From Symbiobacterium thermophilum IAM 14863 (GTDB lineage: Bacteria; Bacillota; Sulfobacillia; Symbiobacteriales; Symbiobacteriaceae), in contig NC_006177.1 in the NCBI RefSeq assembly GCF_000009905.1, positions 2,666,001-2,730,000 on the forward strand: a stretch of DNA of 64,000 bases, read 5' to 3'. Below the pieces are notes generated by a model that saw only the letters and a program-made list of their open reading frames with translations, made no database searches and was not told where the DNA came from. A program made the position numbers and the translations under genes. Below, piece after piece: positions 14,377-22,809 of the stretch. Within the stretch, counting starts at the first letter, position 1, and every line of letters begins with the position of its first letter.

Positions 14377-14733
14377 TCAGTCGGGCACGTGGGTCAGCCA
14401 GCCATCGTACATCGCGTCGAAGCGGCGGGCCAGGGCGTCCAGCTCGTCCGAGACAGCCAGCAGCCGCCGCTCCTCCAGGAGCTCCAGCCGCACGGCGACC
14501 AGCCGCCAGGCCCGGTCGGCGTTGTCGGGGTCGTAGACCAGGCTTTCCACCTTGAACCCCCGCTCCTCCAGGGCCGCCGCCAGGCCGTCGACGTCGCCGC
14601 CCTCTGCCGCGTAGAAGTGCTGCTCGAGCACGAACGGCTCCCGGGGTGGATGGGCGGGGTCCACCAGCGCGCGGAAGGCCTGAATGGTCGCGGCGTGGCG
14701 CGCCGCCCGCTCGGCCTCGGTCTCAGGCCGCAC
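14377..14733 (-). CDS. RraB-domain (ribonuclease E inhibitor-like) small protein
   Basis: 118 residues, GTG 14733 after AAAGGAGG. The fold-defining pattern of the RraB/DUF1260 family is visible: EQHFYAAEGGDVDGLAAALEERGFKVESL, then RLVAVRLELLE and LDALARRFDAMYDGW. RraB binds and inhibits RNase E in Escherichia coli, but RNase E-type enzymes are not generally expected in this lineage, so the target here is unknown. It lies 28 bp downstream of the family 3 glycosidase gene and is likely in its transcript. Confidence 0.7.
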   Translation of the reverse strand: MRPETEAERAARHAATIQAFRALVDPAHPPREPFVLEQHFYAAEGGDVDGLAAALEERGFKVESLVYDPDNADRAWRLVAVRLELLEERRLLAVSDELDALARRFDAMYDGWLTHVPD

Positions 14734-16683: not shown

Positions 16684-18300
16684 CTATGCGCCCGGGCGGA
16701 CACGCGGGAAGTTGAGCGCCTCCATGAAGACCTCCTCGAAGTCGGGATGGGTCGCCAGCTCCACGAAGCGGGCCCCGCGGGCCAGGGCCTCCGCGCGGTC
16801 GCGGGCCGAGCGGGAGAGCAGGGCCAGCTTCGCCCCCGCGATCGCAGCGTTCCCGATGGGCTGGATGCGCCCCGGGTCCACCGGGGGCAGGAGGCCGGTG
16901 GCGACCGCGCTCTCCCGCCGCAGGTAGTTGCCGAATGCGCCGGCCAGGAGCACCTTGTCCAGCCGGGCGGGGCCGATCCCCGCCACCCGCAGCAGCACCT
17001 CAATGCCCGACCGGATCGCTCCCTTGGCCAGCTGCAGGGACCGGAGGTCCTTCTGGGTGAGCTGCACCCCGGGAGCCAGGGCAACGGCCCGGCCGCCCTC
17101 CGCCAGCCGGTGCGCGGCGGGTCCGGCATGGGTGAGCCGCCCGGTCTCGTCCATCAGCCCGGCCTCCAGCAGGGCCGCCGCAGCGTCCAGCAGCCCCGAT
17201 CCGCAGATCCCCCTGGCCGCCTCGGTTCCGGAGCCGCCGCCGCCGCCGGCCGTAGACCGCGGGCCGCCCGGGATAACCGTCACCACCAGGTCCCGCCCGT
17301 CGAACCGCACCGCCTCAATGGCGCCGGGACCGGCCCGCATCCCCTGGCTGATCTCGCCCCCCTCGAAGGCCGGGCCGGCGGGCGCCGAGCACGCGTAGAG
17401 CCGCCCGGCGTGGCGCAGCAGGACCTCGCCGTTGGTGCCCACGTCCACCAGCAGGACGGTCTCCTCGCCCGCGTCCAGCCCGGCCGCCAGCGCCGCGGCC
17501 ACGGTGTCCGCCCCCACGAACCCGGCGATGACGGGCAGGGCGTAGAGCGCCGGGAAGCCCGGAACCTCGAAGACCCGTCCCTCCGTGACCGCGGGCGTGT
17601 ACGGGGCCACGGCCAGTTGCTCGACCGGCAGCCCCAGGAACAGGTGGTGCATCGCCGTGTTGCCCACCAGGGAGGCGGCCGTCACCTCCTCCGGCCGGGC
17701 GCCGGCCTTGCCCAGCAGCCGGCCGAGCAGCGCCTGCGCGGCATCCCGCACGAGCCGTGTCAGTTCGCCCTTCTGCTCCTCCCCCTGGATGGCGTGGGAC
17801 AGGCGGGTCATGAGGTCGGCCCCGTAGACCGCCTGGGGGTTCAGGGAGGCGTGCACCGCCAGCTCCTCGCCCGTGCGCAGGTCCAGGAGGGCGCCGGCGA
17901 TGCCGGTGGTGCCGACGTCCAGGGCGAAGCCCAGCGACCGGCCGGTGGGGTTGAGGGGCGCCCAGGGGTCCACCTCGGCCGGTCCTGCCAGGGCGCCCAG
18001 GCGCGCCTTCCGGGGATCCAGCGTGACGGCGGGCACCACGGCCACCTCCAGGTCGCGGTCCACCCGCAGCTGGCACGACAGCCGGAATCCCTGGGCCAGT
18101 TCGGCCGGGGTGAGCTGCTCCAGGTCGGCGGGCGTCGGCTCCGGGGCCTCCCCCAGCACCCGCACCAGGCACTTGCGGCACTGGCCCCGGGCGCCGCAGG
18201 GGGTCTCCACGAAGGGCTCGTGCTGGTTCAGCGCCCGCGCGAGCGGCATCCCCGAGGGGACCGAAAACGTCCGGCCCGCGGCCTTCACCTGGACGTTCAC
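16684..18300 (-). CDS. Corrinoid-protein reactivating ATPase (2Fe-2S + ASKHA, RACE/RamA-like)
   Basis: 538 residues. An N-terminal plant-type 2Fe-2S domain has ligands C35, C41, C44 and C75 (CGARGQCRKC...SCQL). The remaining part is an ASKHA ATPase of the DUF4445 type: GFALDVGTTGIAGALLDL (~135), SLVGNTAMHHLFLGL, FVGADTVAAALAAG, VLLVDVGTNGEVLL, ARGICGSGLLDAAA and LAGAFGNYL. Such proteins reduce inactive Co(II) cobalamin in corrinoid methyltransferases at the expense of ATP. The GTG start overlaps the metH stop by 4 bp (GTGA), so it is translationally coupled to the B12-dependent methionine synthase and is its most likely client. Confidence 0.88.
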   Translation of the reverse strand: MNVQVKAAGRTFSVPSGMPLARALNQHEPFVETPCGARGQCRKCLVRVLGEAPEPTPADLEQLTPAELAQGFRLSCQLRVDRDLEVAVVPAVTLDPRKARLGALAGPAEVDPWAPLNPTGRSLGFALDVGTTGIAGALLDLRTGEELAVHASLNPQAVYGADLMTRLSHAIQGEEQKGELTRLVRDAAQALLGRLLGKAGARPEEVTAASLVGNTAMHHLFLGLPVEQLAVAPYTPAVTEGRVFEVPGFPALYALPVIAGFVGADTVAAALAAGLDAGEETVLLVDVGTNGEVLLRHAGRLYACSAPAGPAFEGGEISQGMRAGPGAIEAVRFDGRDLVVTVIPGGPRSTAGGGGGSGTEAARGICGSGLLDAAAALLEAGLMDETGRLTHAGPAAHRLAEGGRAVALAPGVQLTQKDLRSLQLAKGAIRSGIEVLLRVAGIGPARLDKVLLAGAFGNYLRRESAVATGLLPPVDPGRIQPIGNAAIAGAKLALLSRSARDRAEALARGARFVELATHPDFEEVFMEALNFPRVRPGA

Positions 18301-20876
18301 CCTGCGTCCCCCTTCCGCCCCGCCCGGCGCTCCTTCAGCACCTCCAGCGCCAGGGCCACCGCCTCCTGCGCGTCCCGCCCGTGTCCCCGGGCGCCGATCT
18401 GCTCGGCGAACGCCTTCGTCGTGGCCGCCCCACCCACGATGACCGGGCAGTCGAAGCCCTCCCGGGCGAACAGCTCGATCACCCGCTTCATCTGGGGCAT
18501 GGTGGTGGTCATCAGCGCGGAGAGGCCCACCATGTCGGCCCCCACCTTCCGGGCCTCCTCCAGGACCACCTCGTTCTTCACGTCCCGCCCCAGGTCCACC
18601 ACCCGGAACCCGTAGTTCTCCAGCAGGACCGCGACGATGTTCTTCCCGATGTCGTGGATGTCGCCCTGCACCGTGGCCAGGACCACCGTCCCGATCTCGG
18701 TCTGGCCCACCTTGGCCTTCTGGATCTCCGGCTTCAGCCGGGCAAACGCCTTCTTCATGGCCTGGGCGGAGAGCATGAGCTGGGGCAGGAAGTAGATGCC
18801 CTCGCCGAAGAGGCGCCCCACCTCCTCGATGGCGGGGATCAGATGTCGGTTGAGCATGTCCATCGGATCCCGGCCCTCGGCCAGCCCCTGCTCCACCAGG
18901 GGCACGATGGCCTCCCGGTCGCCCTCGAGGATGGCGTCGTGGAGCCGCCGGCCGAGCTCGTCGGCGAGGTCCGCCGGCGCAGGTGTCGCAGGCTCGGCCG
19001 GGGTCGCCGCCCCGTCCCGGCCCCCGGCGGGGGCAGGGCCCGACGCGGCGCCGGACGAGGGCGTTACGGCAGCGGGGGCGATCTCCCCCGCCTTCGCGGC
19101 CGCCTTCAGCGCCTCCTCCACCGTGTGCACCAGCCGCTTCGGCCCCACCGCCTGCATGTAGACGGCGGCGTTGCGGTCCCGGTTGAGGAAGAGCCGCAGG
19201 GCCCGGACGGTGTCCATCATCCGCTCGTCCAGGGGGTTCATGATCGCCATCGCGAGCCCCTCCGTCACCGCCATGCTCAGGTACACGGCGTTGAGGAAGT
19301 GCCGGTTGGGCAGTCCGAAGGAGATGTTGGAGACGCCCAGGGAGGCCAGGACCCCCAGCTCGTCGGTGATCCAGCGGATGGCCTTCAGCGTCTCCTTCGC
19401 CTCCGCCTGCTGGGCGCCGGCGGTGAGGGCCAGCGGGTCGATGACCACGTCGTGCCGGGGGATGCCGTGCGCCTCCGCCGCGGCCACCAGCCGCCGGGCG
19501 ATCGCCAGCCGCTGCTCGGCGGAGGCGGGGATCCCCTTCTCGTCGATGGTGAGCCCCAGCACCGCCGCGCCGTAGCGCCTGGCCAGCGGCAGCACCGCCT
19601 CGGCCCGCCCTTCCTCCAGGCTGAAGGAGTTGAGCAGCGGCTTGCCCACGCAGGCCTTCAGCCCCGCCTCCAGGGCCGCCGGGTCCGGGGAGTCCAGGCA
19701 GAGGGGCACGTCCACCGCGTCCTGGATCACCCGCACGGCCCGGGCCATGGCCGCAGGCTCGTCGATGAGGGGCACGCCCACGTTCACGTCCAGCACCGCG
19801 GCCCCGGCCTCCACCTGCTGCTTCGCCTCGGCCCGTACCCGCTGGAAGGCGCCTTCGCGGATGTCCCTGGTCAGCAGCTTCCGGCCCGTGGGGTTGATGC
19901 GCTCGCCGATCACCACCGGCAGGTTCTGCTCCACGAAGAACAGCGAACGGGTGCGGGAGGCGAGGCCCAGCGTGTGGGCCAGGGGGCCGGGCCGGGCCGG
20001 GGGCTTCAGCCCCTCCACCGCCGCCCGCAGCCGCCGGATATGCTCCGGCGTCGTGCCGCAGCAGCCCCCCACCAGCGCCGCCCCGGCCTCCACCAGCTTC
20101 GGCCCGTAGGCCGCGAACTCCTCAGGTCCCATGGGGAACCGGGTCGCGCCGTCGGGCTGCAGCAGCGGCAGCCCGGCGTTGGGCTGCACCGAGATGGGCA
20201 CCCGGGCGACCCGGGCCATGCGGGCGACCGCCTCCACCAGCAGGTCGGGGCCCACCGAGCAGTTGAAGCCGATCACGTCGGCGCCCAGCGACTGCAGCAC
20301 CAGCGCCGCGGTCTCGGGGTCGGTGCCGGTGAACGCCCGGCCGCTGGGATCCAGGGTGATCTGGGCGATGATCCGGATGCCCGGGGCGTGGTCCCTGCAC
20401 GCCAGCACCGCCGCCCGCAGCTCGTTCAGGTCGGCGATGGTCTCGATGATGATGAAGTCCGGCTGCGCCTCGGCAAACGCCCGGGCCTGGACGGCGAACT
20501 GTGCGTAGGCCTCATCGAAGGGGAGCTCCCCCAGAGGCTCCACCAGCGCCCCCAGCGGCCCCATCGAGCCCGCGACCCAGGCCCGGCCCGCGGCGGCCTC
20601 CCGGGCGCAGCGCACCCCGGCGACGACGATGTCGCGGCACCGGTCCTGCAGGCCGTAGTGGCCGAGCCGGATCGGGGTGGAGCCGAACGTGTTGGTCTCC
20701 AGGATCTGCGCCCCGGCCTCCACGTACGCCCGGTGGACGGCGATCACGTCCTCCGGCCGCTCCAGGTTCCACACGTCCGGGCACGCCCCCGGCGCCAGCC
20801 CCTGGGCCTGGAGCATGGTGCCCATGGCGCCGTCGAAGACCAGGACCTCGCGTCCCAGCATGTCCTCCAGCTTCAT
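18297..20876 (-). CDS. metH: Cobalamin-dependent methionine synthase lacking the activation domain
   Basis: 859 residues versus ~1,230 in the full enzyme. Domains: homocysteine methyltransferase (1-300, zinc ligands in GFNCSVGP and GGCCGTTP), methyltetrahydrofolate/pterin-binding domain (~330-590, VIGERINPTGRK, VLDVNVG), an Ala/Pro-rich linker (~600-640), B12 cap helices and the B12-binding domain with D739-x-H741-x-x-G (DIHDIG). It transfers methyl from CH3-folate to homocysteine through cob(I)alamin. The C-terminal AdoMet-binding reactivation domain is absent; a separate gene upstream supplies a homologue and an ASKHA reactivase follows. ATG 20876 after GGAGGAG. Confidence 0.94.
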   Translation of the reverse strand: MKLEDMLGREVLVFDGAMGTMLQAQGLAPGACPDVWNLERPEDVIAVHRAYVEAGAQILETNTFGSTPIRLGHYGLQDRCRDIVVAGVRCAREAAAGRAWVAGSMGPLGALVEPLGELPFDEAYAQFAVQARAFAEAQPDFIIIETIADLNELRAAVLACRDHAPGIRIIAQITLDPSGRAFTGTDPETAALVLQSLGADVIGFNCSVGPDLLVEAVARMARVARVPISVQPNAGLPLLQPDGATRFPMGPEEFAAYGPKLVEAGAALVGGCCGTTPEHIRRLRAAVEGLKPPARPGPLAHTLGLASRTRSLFFVEQNLPVVIGERINPTGRKLLTRDIREGAFQRVRAEAKQQVEAGAAVLDVNVGVPLIDEPAAMARAVRVIQDAVDVPLCLDSPDPAALEAGLKACVGKPLLNSFSLEEGRAEAVLPLARRYGAAVLGLTIDEKGIPASAEQRLAIARRLVAAAEAHGIPRHDVVIDPLALTAGAQQAEAKETLKAIRWITDELGVLASLGVSNISFGLPNRHFLNAVYLSMAVTEGLAMAIMNPLDERMMDTVRALRLFLNRDRNAAVYMQAVGPKRLVHTVEEALKAAAKAGEIAPAAVTPSSGAASGPAPAGGRDGAATPAEPATPAPADLADELGRRLHDAILEGDREAIVPLVEQGLAEGRDPMDMLNRHLIPAIEEVGRLFGEGIYFLPQLMLSAQAMKKAFARLKPEIQKAKVGQTEIGTVVLATVQGDIHDIGKNIVAVLLENYGFRVVDLGRDVKNEVVLEEARKVGADMVGLSALMTTTMPQMKRVIELFAREGFDCPVIVGGAATTKAFAEQIGARGHGRDAQEAVALALEVLKERRAGRKGDAG

Positions 20877-20948
20877 CGTCTGCTCCTCCTTCCGGCCGTT
20901 CCCGCCTCCGGCGGCGGCCCCACCGCCTGAACCTCACACAGCGGCCGC

Positions 20949-21662
20949 TCACCGCCGGCTGGTCCGCACCCGGTAGGCGCAGTCCGCCAGGGTGCAGCGG
21001 GTGCAGCCCACCGCCGGCCAGTCCCGTCCCCCGGATGGCAGCCACCCGATCAGCCCCACCAGGGACTTCTGCGGCACCAGGTAGCAGGTGGGCGTGCACC
21101 GAAGCCCGATCGCCTCTCCCCCGGCCAGGGCCACCAGTCCGGGCTGCTCCTCCACCTTCCAGTCGCCGTAGCCCGGGCCGTACAGCGGGGTGAGCGTCAC
21201 ACCGGCGGCCGCCCCCGCCTCCGCCTCCTGCAGCAGCGCCCCGCGCACCCACTCCGCCAGTCCGTGCACGAGGGCCGAACCCGCAGCGTCGACGATGGTG
21301 GCCAGGGCGAACTCCTCCCGCGCGAACAGATCCCGGATCAGCTCGTCCACGCCGGCCCCCAGGGTAACCGCCACCAGCGAGGCCGCGTCGGCCCCCGCCA
21401 GCAGCCTGGCCAGGCTCCGGGACTGCCACGCCACCCCCGGCACCGCGGCGCTCACCCGGTCCTCCGCCACGGTGACGGCGCAGTAGGCCGCGCTGGCGGC
21501 AGGGGCCGCCGCCTCCCGGGTCAGCGCGATGCCCCGCTCCACCAGGGCCAGGTCGCGCGCGCCGAGCCGCGTGCGCCCTTCCCGGTAGCCCAGCAGCCGC
21601 AGGACCTCGGGGAGCGGCGCCGGAAGCTCCGCCGCGGCCGGGCGCAGAATCGTCCGCTGCAG
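20949..21662 (-). CDS. Stand-alone MetH activation-domain protein
   Basis: About 237 residues. It matches the AdoMet-dependent reactivation domain of cobalamin methionine synthase as found in split systems: EVLRLLGYREGRT at the N-terminus, VTLGAGVDELIRDLF, DAAGSALVHGLAEWV, then LTPLYGPGYGDWKVEEQPGLV and a Cys-containing tail (GCTRCTLADC). It probably donates methyl from AdoMet to rescue oxidised MetH. The frame has no ATG, GTG or TTG near the proper N-terminus; CTG 21662 is the nearest candidate after GGTGGGGGTG. It starts within a few bases of the metF stop, so coupling by re-initiation, or a -1 frameshift from metF, is possible. It precedes metH by 72 bp. Confidence 0.82.
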   Translation of the reverse strand: MQRTILRPAAAELPAPLPEVLRLLGYREGRTRLGARDLALVERGIALTREAAAPAASAAYCAVTVAEDRVSAAVPGVAWQSRSLARLLAGADAASLVAVTLGAGVDELIRDLFAREEFALATIVDAAGSALVHGLAEWVRGALLQEAEAGAAAGVTLTPLYGPGYGDWKVEEQPGLVALAGGEAIGLRCTPTCYLVPQKSLVGLIGWLPSGGRDWPAVGCTRCTLADCAYRVRTSRR

Positions 21663-21667
21663 CTTGC

Positions 21668-22570
21668 CTACACCCCCACCCGGACCGAGTGCCGCAGCCC
21701 CAGCTCGTCGATGAGGTCCAGCACCGCCACGACCCGCCGGGCGCTGTTCATCGGGAAGATGTGCACGCCGTGGACGTGGGGCCCGATCTCCCGCAGGAGT
21801 TCGGCGGTGAGCCGCAGCCCTTCCTCCTCGTCCCGGCCCCGCATGCGGTCCAGGACCCAGCCGGGGATGACGATGCCGGGGACGGTCCGGTTCAGCCGGT
21901 CGGCAAACTCGTAGCTCTTCAGGGGCAGGACGCCATACAGGATCGGGATCTTCACCCTCCCCGCCAGCTTCGCCTGGAAGCGCTCCACCTGGCGCGGGTC
22001 GTAGACGGGCTGGGTTTGGGCGAAGTGTGCCCCGGCCTCCACCTTCTCCTCCAGCCGGGAGACCTCCGCCTCCAGGTCCGCCGCCGCCGGGTTGCAGGCG
22101 CAGCCGATGGCGAAGTCGGTGCCCTGCTCCAGCGGGGTCCCCGAGACCGTCTGCCCCCGGTTGAGCGCGGCCGCCAGCCGGATCAGCCCGATGGTGTCCA
22201 CCTCGAAGACGCCCCGGGCGTCGGGATGGTCGCCCCGCGACGGGTCGTCGCCGCGCAGGGCCAGGATGTTGCGCACCCCCAGCCCCGCCGCGCCCAGCAG
22301 CTCCGCCTGCAGGCCGATGATGTTGCGGTCCCGGGTGGTCAGGTGGAAGATCGCCTCCACCTGGCCGTCCCGCTGCAGGAGGTGGGCCAGGGTGATCGGG
22401 CTCATCCGCACGTTGGCCATCGGGCAGTCGGCCACGTTCACCGCGTCCACCCGGTCGCCGAAGCGCCGCACCCGCTCCAGCGTCCCGGCGACGCCGGCTC
22501 CCCTGGGCGGGTCGATCTCCACCGTGACGCAGAACGCGCCCTGCTGCAGCCTGTGCATCAAGCGGGCCAT
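21668..22570 (-). CDS. metF: Methylenetetrahydrofolate reductase
   Basis: 300 residues. The TIM-barrel flavoprotein reduces 5,10-methylene- to 5-methyl-tetrahydrofolate, the methyl donor for the neighbouring methionine synthase. Motifs: TVEIDPPRGAG (~18), VADCPMANVRMSPI, HLTTRDRNIIGLQAELLGA (folate/FAD region), ALRGDDPSRGDHPDA, and FAIGCACNPAA followed by KVEAGAHFAQTQPVYD. ATG 22570 is preceded by GAGGAGGGAG. It is the first gene of the metF-metH operon and sits directly downstream of a SAM-I riboswitch terminator. Confidence 0.94.
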   Translation of the reverse strand: MARLMHRLQQGAFCVTVEIDPPRGAGVAGTLERVRRFGDRVDAVNVADCPMANVRMSPITLAHLLQRDGQVEAIFHLTTRDRNIIGLQAELLGAAGLGVRNILALRGDDPSRGDHPDARGVFEVDTIGLIRLAAALNRGQTVSGTPLEQGTDFAIGCACNPAAADLEAEVSRLEEKVEAGAHFAQTQPVYDPRQVERFQAKLAGRVKIPILYGVLPLKSYEFADRLNRTVPGIVIPGWVLDRMRGRDEEEGLRLTAELLREIGPHVHGVHIFPMNSARRVVAVLDLIDELGLRHSVRVGV

Positions 22571-22595: not shown

Positions 22596-22625
22596 CGCAA
22601 AGAACCCTTCGAGAACGAAGGGTTC
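22596..22625 (-). terminator. Riboswitch-controlled terminator before metF
   Basis: On the minus strand GAACCCTTCG/CGAAGGGTTC form a perfect stem with a four-base TTCT loop (22625-22602), followed by TTTGCG. It lies between the S-box aptamer and the metF ribosome site, as expected for the expression platform. Confidence 0.8.
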
Positions 22626-22780: not shown

Positions 22781-22809
22781 AGTATAGCAACCTGCGTTCA
22801 GTAGGACAA
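22781..22809 (-). promoter_or_regulatory. Promoter of the S-box/metF operon
   Basis: Minus strand: TTGTCC (22809-22804), 17-bp spacer, TATACT (22786-22781). The start point falls about 25 bases before the aptamer. The -35 box lies within the last codons of the upstream M23 peptidase gene. Confidence 0.7.

Follow-up and report, generated by a model that had tools for sequence, protein, structure and literature searches.

The methionine synthase operon of Symbiobacterium thermophilum IAM 14863 probably encodes a single ATP-driven system in two parts for reactivating MetH, rather than an AdoMet-based and an ATP-based system standing side by side. In the textbook scheme, MetH is repaired with AdoMet and flavodoxin, and the corrinoid proteins of methylotrophy are repaired with ATP through RACo. 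In the operon, a relative from the first type of repair, a stand-alone homologue of the MetH activation domain (Act), is combined with an activator of the second type. Our reading draws on the residues at the AdoMet site of Act, on the recurrence of the operon in related genomes and, across a wider survey, on the pairing of Act with RACo, at times in one chain.

Operon architecture and SAM control

The window analyzed here is the whole stretch of 64,000 nucleotides (contig NC_006177.1, positions 2,666,001 to 2,730,000), and all of its features described below lie on the minus strand. A SAM riboswitch is followed by metF, act, metH and the gene for a RACo-like protein, all of them present and intact. 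Upstream is a promoter-like site with an extended -10 element (TTGTCC-17-TATACT; 22781..22809), which scored 9 of 12 matches in a consensus scan, with 0.1 such sites expected in shuffled sequence; the match alone does not establish a working promoter. The aptamer of the riboswitch (SAM or S-box, RF00162; 22649..22754) was recovered by cmscan at 95 bits (E = 1.4e-21), so that the initial annotation was right to describe the operon as SAM controlled. RNA folding places a 10-bp hairpin 3' of the aptamer (22602..22625) as a possible terminator or sequestering stem; although this hairpin is strong, a terminator scan of the riboswitch leader called no T-rich (T-run) terminator, which leaves the mode of control uncertain. 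The first gene, metF (21668..22570), encodes methylenetetrahydrofolate reductase (PF02219, E = 3.1e-39). At the distal end, metH and the RACo gene share the 4-bp overlap noticed in the initial annotation, a GTGA that supplies both the metH stop and the RACo start (18297..18300). Elsewhere in the window, positions 14377-14733 encode an RraB-family protein (regulator of ribonuclease activity B; E = 2.3e-18), flanked by a GH3 glycosidase and a UvrD-like helicase.

The arrangement is not peculiar to this strain. The order metF-act-metH-RACo recurs in four more Symbiobacteriales genomes (L184-L187), each with a SAM riboswitch, and the same four genes occur in a Bacillota MAG (L191). In another Bacillota genus, three genomes (L072-L074) carry riboswitch, act, metH and RACo together.

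MetH as the probable client of RACo

The metH product (18297..20876; 859 aa) is a cobalamin-dependent methionine synthase that, as the initial annotation had it, ends after the B12 domain. Pfam assigns it the homocysteine, folate, cap and B12 domains (PF02574, PF00809, PF02607 and PF02310) and finds no activation domain (PF02965) in the chain, which stops about 20 aa past the B12 domain. The zinc-site cysteines are present in NCSVG and GGCCGT, and the cobalt-ligand motif reads DIHDIGK. Lack of a C-terminal activation domain does not disqualify the protein as MetH, because such chains are common in Bacillota. Genome searches found no MetE in S. thermophilum and left MetH as the only methionine synthase.

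The last gene (16684..18300; 538 aa) encodes a predicted RACo-type ATP-dependent corrinoid activator, in keeping with its first description as an ASKHA/2Fe-2S protein. It contains Fer2 (E = 8e-9), Raco_middle (7.4e-41) and RACo_C_ter, the ASKHA ATPase (5.3e-71), and has the [2Fe-2S] cysteines 35, 41, 44 and 76 together with the ASKHA motifs. It matches solved RACo structures of Carboxydothermus hydrogenoformans (3zyy, at 2.4e-71, and 4c1n), which combine the same [2Fe-2S] and ASKHA ATPase domains. The C. hydrogenoformans protein performs the ATP-dependent reduction of Co(II) to Co(I) that is predicted here, but its client is CoFeSP, and the window RACo has no Pfam match to RACo_linker (PF17650). 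Since this linker varies within the RACo/RamA-type family, we did not treat it as family-defining. The resulting short form, with some 70 residues fewer between the ferredoxin and ASKHA parts, is found in 12 of the 13 distinct RACo proteins that adjoin MetH versus roughly 22 of 115 others; the missing segment is RACo_linker itself.

The genome encodes one RACo, that of the operon, and one protein with PF02607, the cap domain of corrinoid methyltransferases, namely MetH. With MetE also missing from the search results, MetH is the only evident client, and RACo probably serves it in this organism. The clients of RACo relatives are for the most part CoFeSP and methylotrophic corrinoid proteins (PMC6739815), a record that would suit a RACo working on another corrinoid enzyme and lying behind metH by accident. 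We consider this highly improbable: no PF02607 candidate besides MetH came to light in S. thermophilum, the adjacency of metH and RACo is kept throughout Symbiobacteriales and appears in other lineages, and the short form is the rule beside metH.

Precedent for an activator of this kind comes from Desulfovibrio and Phaeobacter, in which genetic evidence connects DUF4445/RamA-like proteins with methionine synthesis (Price et al. 2018, PMC5764234). In the Desulfovibrio MetH and the split MetH of Phaeobacter, as in the window, an ATP-type activator is proposed to reactivate a methionine synthase that has no activation domain. In those systems a PF02965-type protein is absent (Phaeobacter) or not described, whereas in the window operon an Act-fold protein accompanies RACo. 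An arrangement resembling the split enzyme of Phaeobacter was also seen in three surveyed loci, where RACo adjoins separate homocysteine-domain and B12-domain proteins (L246:4274-7613 and L223) or a homocysteine-domain protein (L267).

Act keeps the activation-domain fold with an altered AdoMet site

The protein between MetF and MetH (P0003; 20949..21662) has an uncertain start. There is no ATG, GTG or TTG near the homologous position (21640-21668), and the window reads AAG-CTG where the relative in L186 has ATG-CTC. Comparison of start codons suggests a CTG start at 21662, shared with the relative in L184. The protein has no Pfam match at 1e-3, PF02965 included, and 31 of 40 relatives do match PF02965. 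Against Thermotoga maritima TM0269 (1j6r) it scores 1.3e-4 as a single sequence and 5.5e-35 as a 40-sequence profile. Its AlphaFold2 model (pLDDT 91.9) aligns with 1j6r in Foldseek at a TM score of 0.89 and also matches the AdoMet-bound reactivation domain 6bm5. The profile and model matches together assign Act the fold of the activation domain, bearing out its first description as a stand-alone homologue, and the same fold is found in the MetH reactivation domains of E. coli (1msk) and Thermus (8ssc). In E. coli and Thermus this domain forms part of the MetH chain and works with AdoMet and an external flavodoxin-type reductant; the window Act stands alone.

To map its residues, the Act profile was aligned with E. 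coli MetH (1msk), whose numbering was verified against the letters of the chain. The RxxxGY motif and Glu1097 reportedly contact AdoMet in E. coli MetH (Dixon 1996). In the window Act, the place of Glu1097 is taken by His135 (21264..21266), a position that holds Glu or Asp in all 65 AdoMet-type Act proteins of our survey. The motif itself has degenerated to LYGPGY (21168..21185), in which Arg1134 is replaced by Leu162 and Tyr1139 is kept as Tyr167. Two of the three conserved contacts (Glu1097, Arg1134, Tyr1139) are therefore replaced. On the basis of an AlphaFold model, the human equivalent of Arg1134, Arg-1172, is described as contacting AdoMet (PMC12272874). Judged from the alignment, Act is related to the MetH activation domain by its predicted fold and not by its ligand site.

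The substitutions extend to relatives. Among the five Symbiobacteriales genomes, window included, four have Leu and the fifth has Pro at the Arg1134 place, and the Glu1097 place reads H, Q, K, Q and E; the Bacillota MAG has Pro and Ser at the two places. A sequencing error at the Arg1134 place was ruled out, as Arg occurs in none of the five. One of the three Act proteins in the other Bacillota genus, that of L072, keeps a full motif (RLGPGY).

Act also has a C-terminal CxxC-x4-C tail (C222, C225, C230; 20979..21005), invariant in the 40-sequence alignment, whose cysteines could be metal or Fe-S ligands. This tail is not specific to RACo partners, because it is present in 55 of the 65 AdoMet-type Act proteins as well.

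The closest known counterpart is the T. maritima pair TM0268/TM0269, described as a MetH that lacks the activation domain together with a separate activation protein (Huang et al. 2007, as cited in PMC7857596). The genes are adjacent, the MetH is split in the same way and the Act fold is the same. TM0269, however, keeps RISPGY, in agreement with RxxxGY, where the window Act has LYGPGY and the His for Glu1097; its solved chain, in the present alignment, shows no Cys tail; and it has no neighboring RACo (a control search with PF14574 gave no match in T. maritima), whereas the window Act shares an operon with RACo.

Loss of the AdoMet motif goes with linkage to RACo

The survey covered 299 Bacillota genomes, among which 108 have a relative of Act, 163 have RACo and 241 have a MetH match. 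The set of Act proteins comprised those of the survey with their neighborhoods and additions from a scan of genome contigs, and classes were assigned from neighboring genes alone. The RxxxGY motif is intact in 65 of 65 Act proteins beside metH without RACo (that is, with no RACo within 10 kb; part of this class is seen with short flanks, and RACo positions in those genomes are known and not nearby) versus 1 of 50 linked or fused to RACo, for 115 classified Act proteins in all. Within the second class it is intact in 1 of 9 in metH-RACo operons, 0 of 35 next to RACo without metH and 0 of 6 fused to RACo; in other contexts the count is 5 of 20. An alignment-free recount gave the same numbers, its Fisher value carrying no correction for kinship. 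Eight of the 65 Act proteins beside metH come from genomes (G023, G043, G050, G065, G101, G201, G274 and G298) that carry RACo elsewhere, so motif loss goes with linkage to RACo and not with its mere presence.

Co-occurrence at the level of genomes was rejected as evidence of partnership, and gene linkage alone is informative: Act and RACo are found together in 47 of the 108 Act genomes, fewer than the 59 expected from 163/299. The initial annotation had proposed a genome survey for co-occurrence of the three genes and had called the presence of both kinds of rescue in one SAM-controlled operon unusual. Operon linkage does recur (L184-L187, L191 and L072-L074), and sharing one operon with metH is a restricted feature; possession of both proteins by one genome is not unusual, and RACo in such genomes often stands with other corrinoid proteins.

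In the best tree, the window Act groups with other Act proteins of the Symbiobacteria type (support 96), outside a large clade of RACo partners (support 98) and nearer to AdoMet-type Act (support 85). An approximately unbiased (AU) test does not reject a single clade of all RACo-linked Act proteins (p = 0.586), so the contrast between the 65 and the 50 may reflect as few as one ancient split. Given this result and the small number of independent pairs on the starred branches of the tree, which is one, we make no claim that the motif was lost several times over.

These data bear on the division of labor put forward in the initial annotation, whereby Act would be a working AdoMet-dependent module like TM0269 and RACo a separate ATP-dependent one, with the choice between them depending on conditions, for instance oxygen or a shortage of AdoMet. 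Act indeed has the TM0269 fold and the GY of the motif (Tyr1139), the window Act lies near AdoMet-type Act in the tree, and the whole operon is governed by a SAM riboswitch. The retained tyrosine and the complete motif of the L072 operon Act also mean that some residual binding of AdoMet by RACo-linked Act is possible. Yet two of three contacts are replaced, loss of the Arg is fixed across Symbiobacteriales, RACo-linked Act proteins as a class are without RxxxGY, and the fusions described below imply joint action. On balance we regard an independent AdoMet module as unlikely; the RACo half of the proposal, with MetH as its probable client across an order-wide operon, fares better.

Act-RACo pairs and fusions

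Act and RACo are fused in six genomes, four in family f72 and two in genus g75. The f72 proteins are single chains of Act, ferredoxin and RACo of 823-835 aa (L075:4045-6552, L076:3796-6276, L077:3848-6319 and L078:3592-6075). The RACo_linker segment missing from the MetH-adjacent short form was seen in the f72 fusion. Both halves were confirmed by Pfam and Foldseek, and the model of the L075 protein matches 3zyy as well as 1j6r; packing between the domains was not read from it, the pTM being 0.72 and the linker disordered. Three of the four f72 fusion genes lie upstream of four others, three with products of about 265-300 aa and the fourth with a product of 209 aa. In g75, part of Act is fused to RACo in a chain of 706-708 aa encoded directly beside metH (L092:7619-9745 and L093:3869-5989). 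The genus has a second, separate Act elsewhere in the genome, with AMSPGT in place of RxxxGY (L094:4247-4912 and L095:4289-4951). Unfused Act-RACo pairs share clusters with methyltransferases and stand-alone corrinoid proteins, both in Bacillota and in MAGs of Dehalococcoidia, Anaerolineae, Actinomycetota and Desulfobacteraceae. From sequence, the fusions point to one shared job.

Act is not found wherever RACo neighbors metH. In two genomes with adjacent metH and RACo (L194 and L195), a whole-genome search found no Act, so that MetH can apparently be served by RACo without it. Further genomes, eight of which belong to family f22, likewise encode RACo and a MetH of about 845-880 aa but no Act. 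That Act can be missing while MetH and RACo stay, and that it accompanies many corrinoid-protein clusters besides those of MetH, would fit a chaperone that loads cobalamin or opens the cap in MetH and other corrinoid proteins, leaving the redox work to RACo. Fusion to the reductant itself suggests a redox-linked job over loading; this is not decisive, and we think a pure chaperone quite unlikely.

Proposed mechanism and implications

We therefore return to a single ATP-driven system. When the cob(I)alamin of MetH is oxidized to cob(II)alamin, the RACo-like protein would use its 2Fe-2S cluster and ASKHA ATPase to reduce Co(II) to Co(I), which would be remethylated by methyl-tetrahydrofolate. 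Co(I) produced by RACo rescue can be methylated by methyl-tetrahydrofolate, and AdoMet would thus not be needed. Act, having lost AdoMet-contact residues and presumably the use of AdoMet, would most likely be an accessory of RACo, which either docks on the B12 domain and keeps that domain in the open, His-off reactivation state or transfers electrons through its Cys tail.

Stand-alone Act (TM0269) and RACo-type reactivation of MetH (Price 2018) are each already known. The open-access literature, which misses most subscription papers, yielded no description of an Act-RACo association; within that literature, the loss of the AdoMet site in RACo-linked Act looks new, as does the repeated occurrence of Act and RACo as a pair or a fusion. 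The pair MecG/MecH of the dichloromethane cassette has been called likely corrinoid reactivation proteins (PMC9768040) and might be an earlier-described but unrecognized example.

The genome survey suggests that the activation-domain fold has been adapted to assist ATP-driven repair. The broader proposition, for which we put the chances at about even, is that this fold has a second, AdoMet-independent life in many phyla as dedicated partner of RACo-type ATPases, enabling ATP-driven reduction by docking on the corrinoid domain or by electrons passed through its three-Cys tail, and that the Symbiobacteriales pair serves methionine synthase. If so, annotations of a "methionine synthase activation domain" in corrinoid clusters would be misleading when read as AdoMet enzymes, a missing component of RACo systems would be named for reconstitution, and the residues that decide between AdoMet- and ATP-dependent repair would become directly testable.
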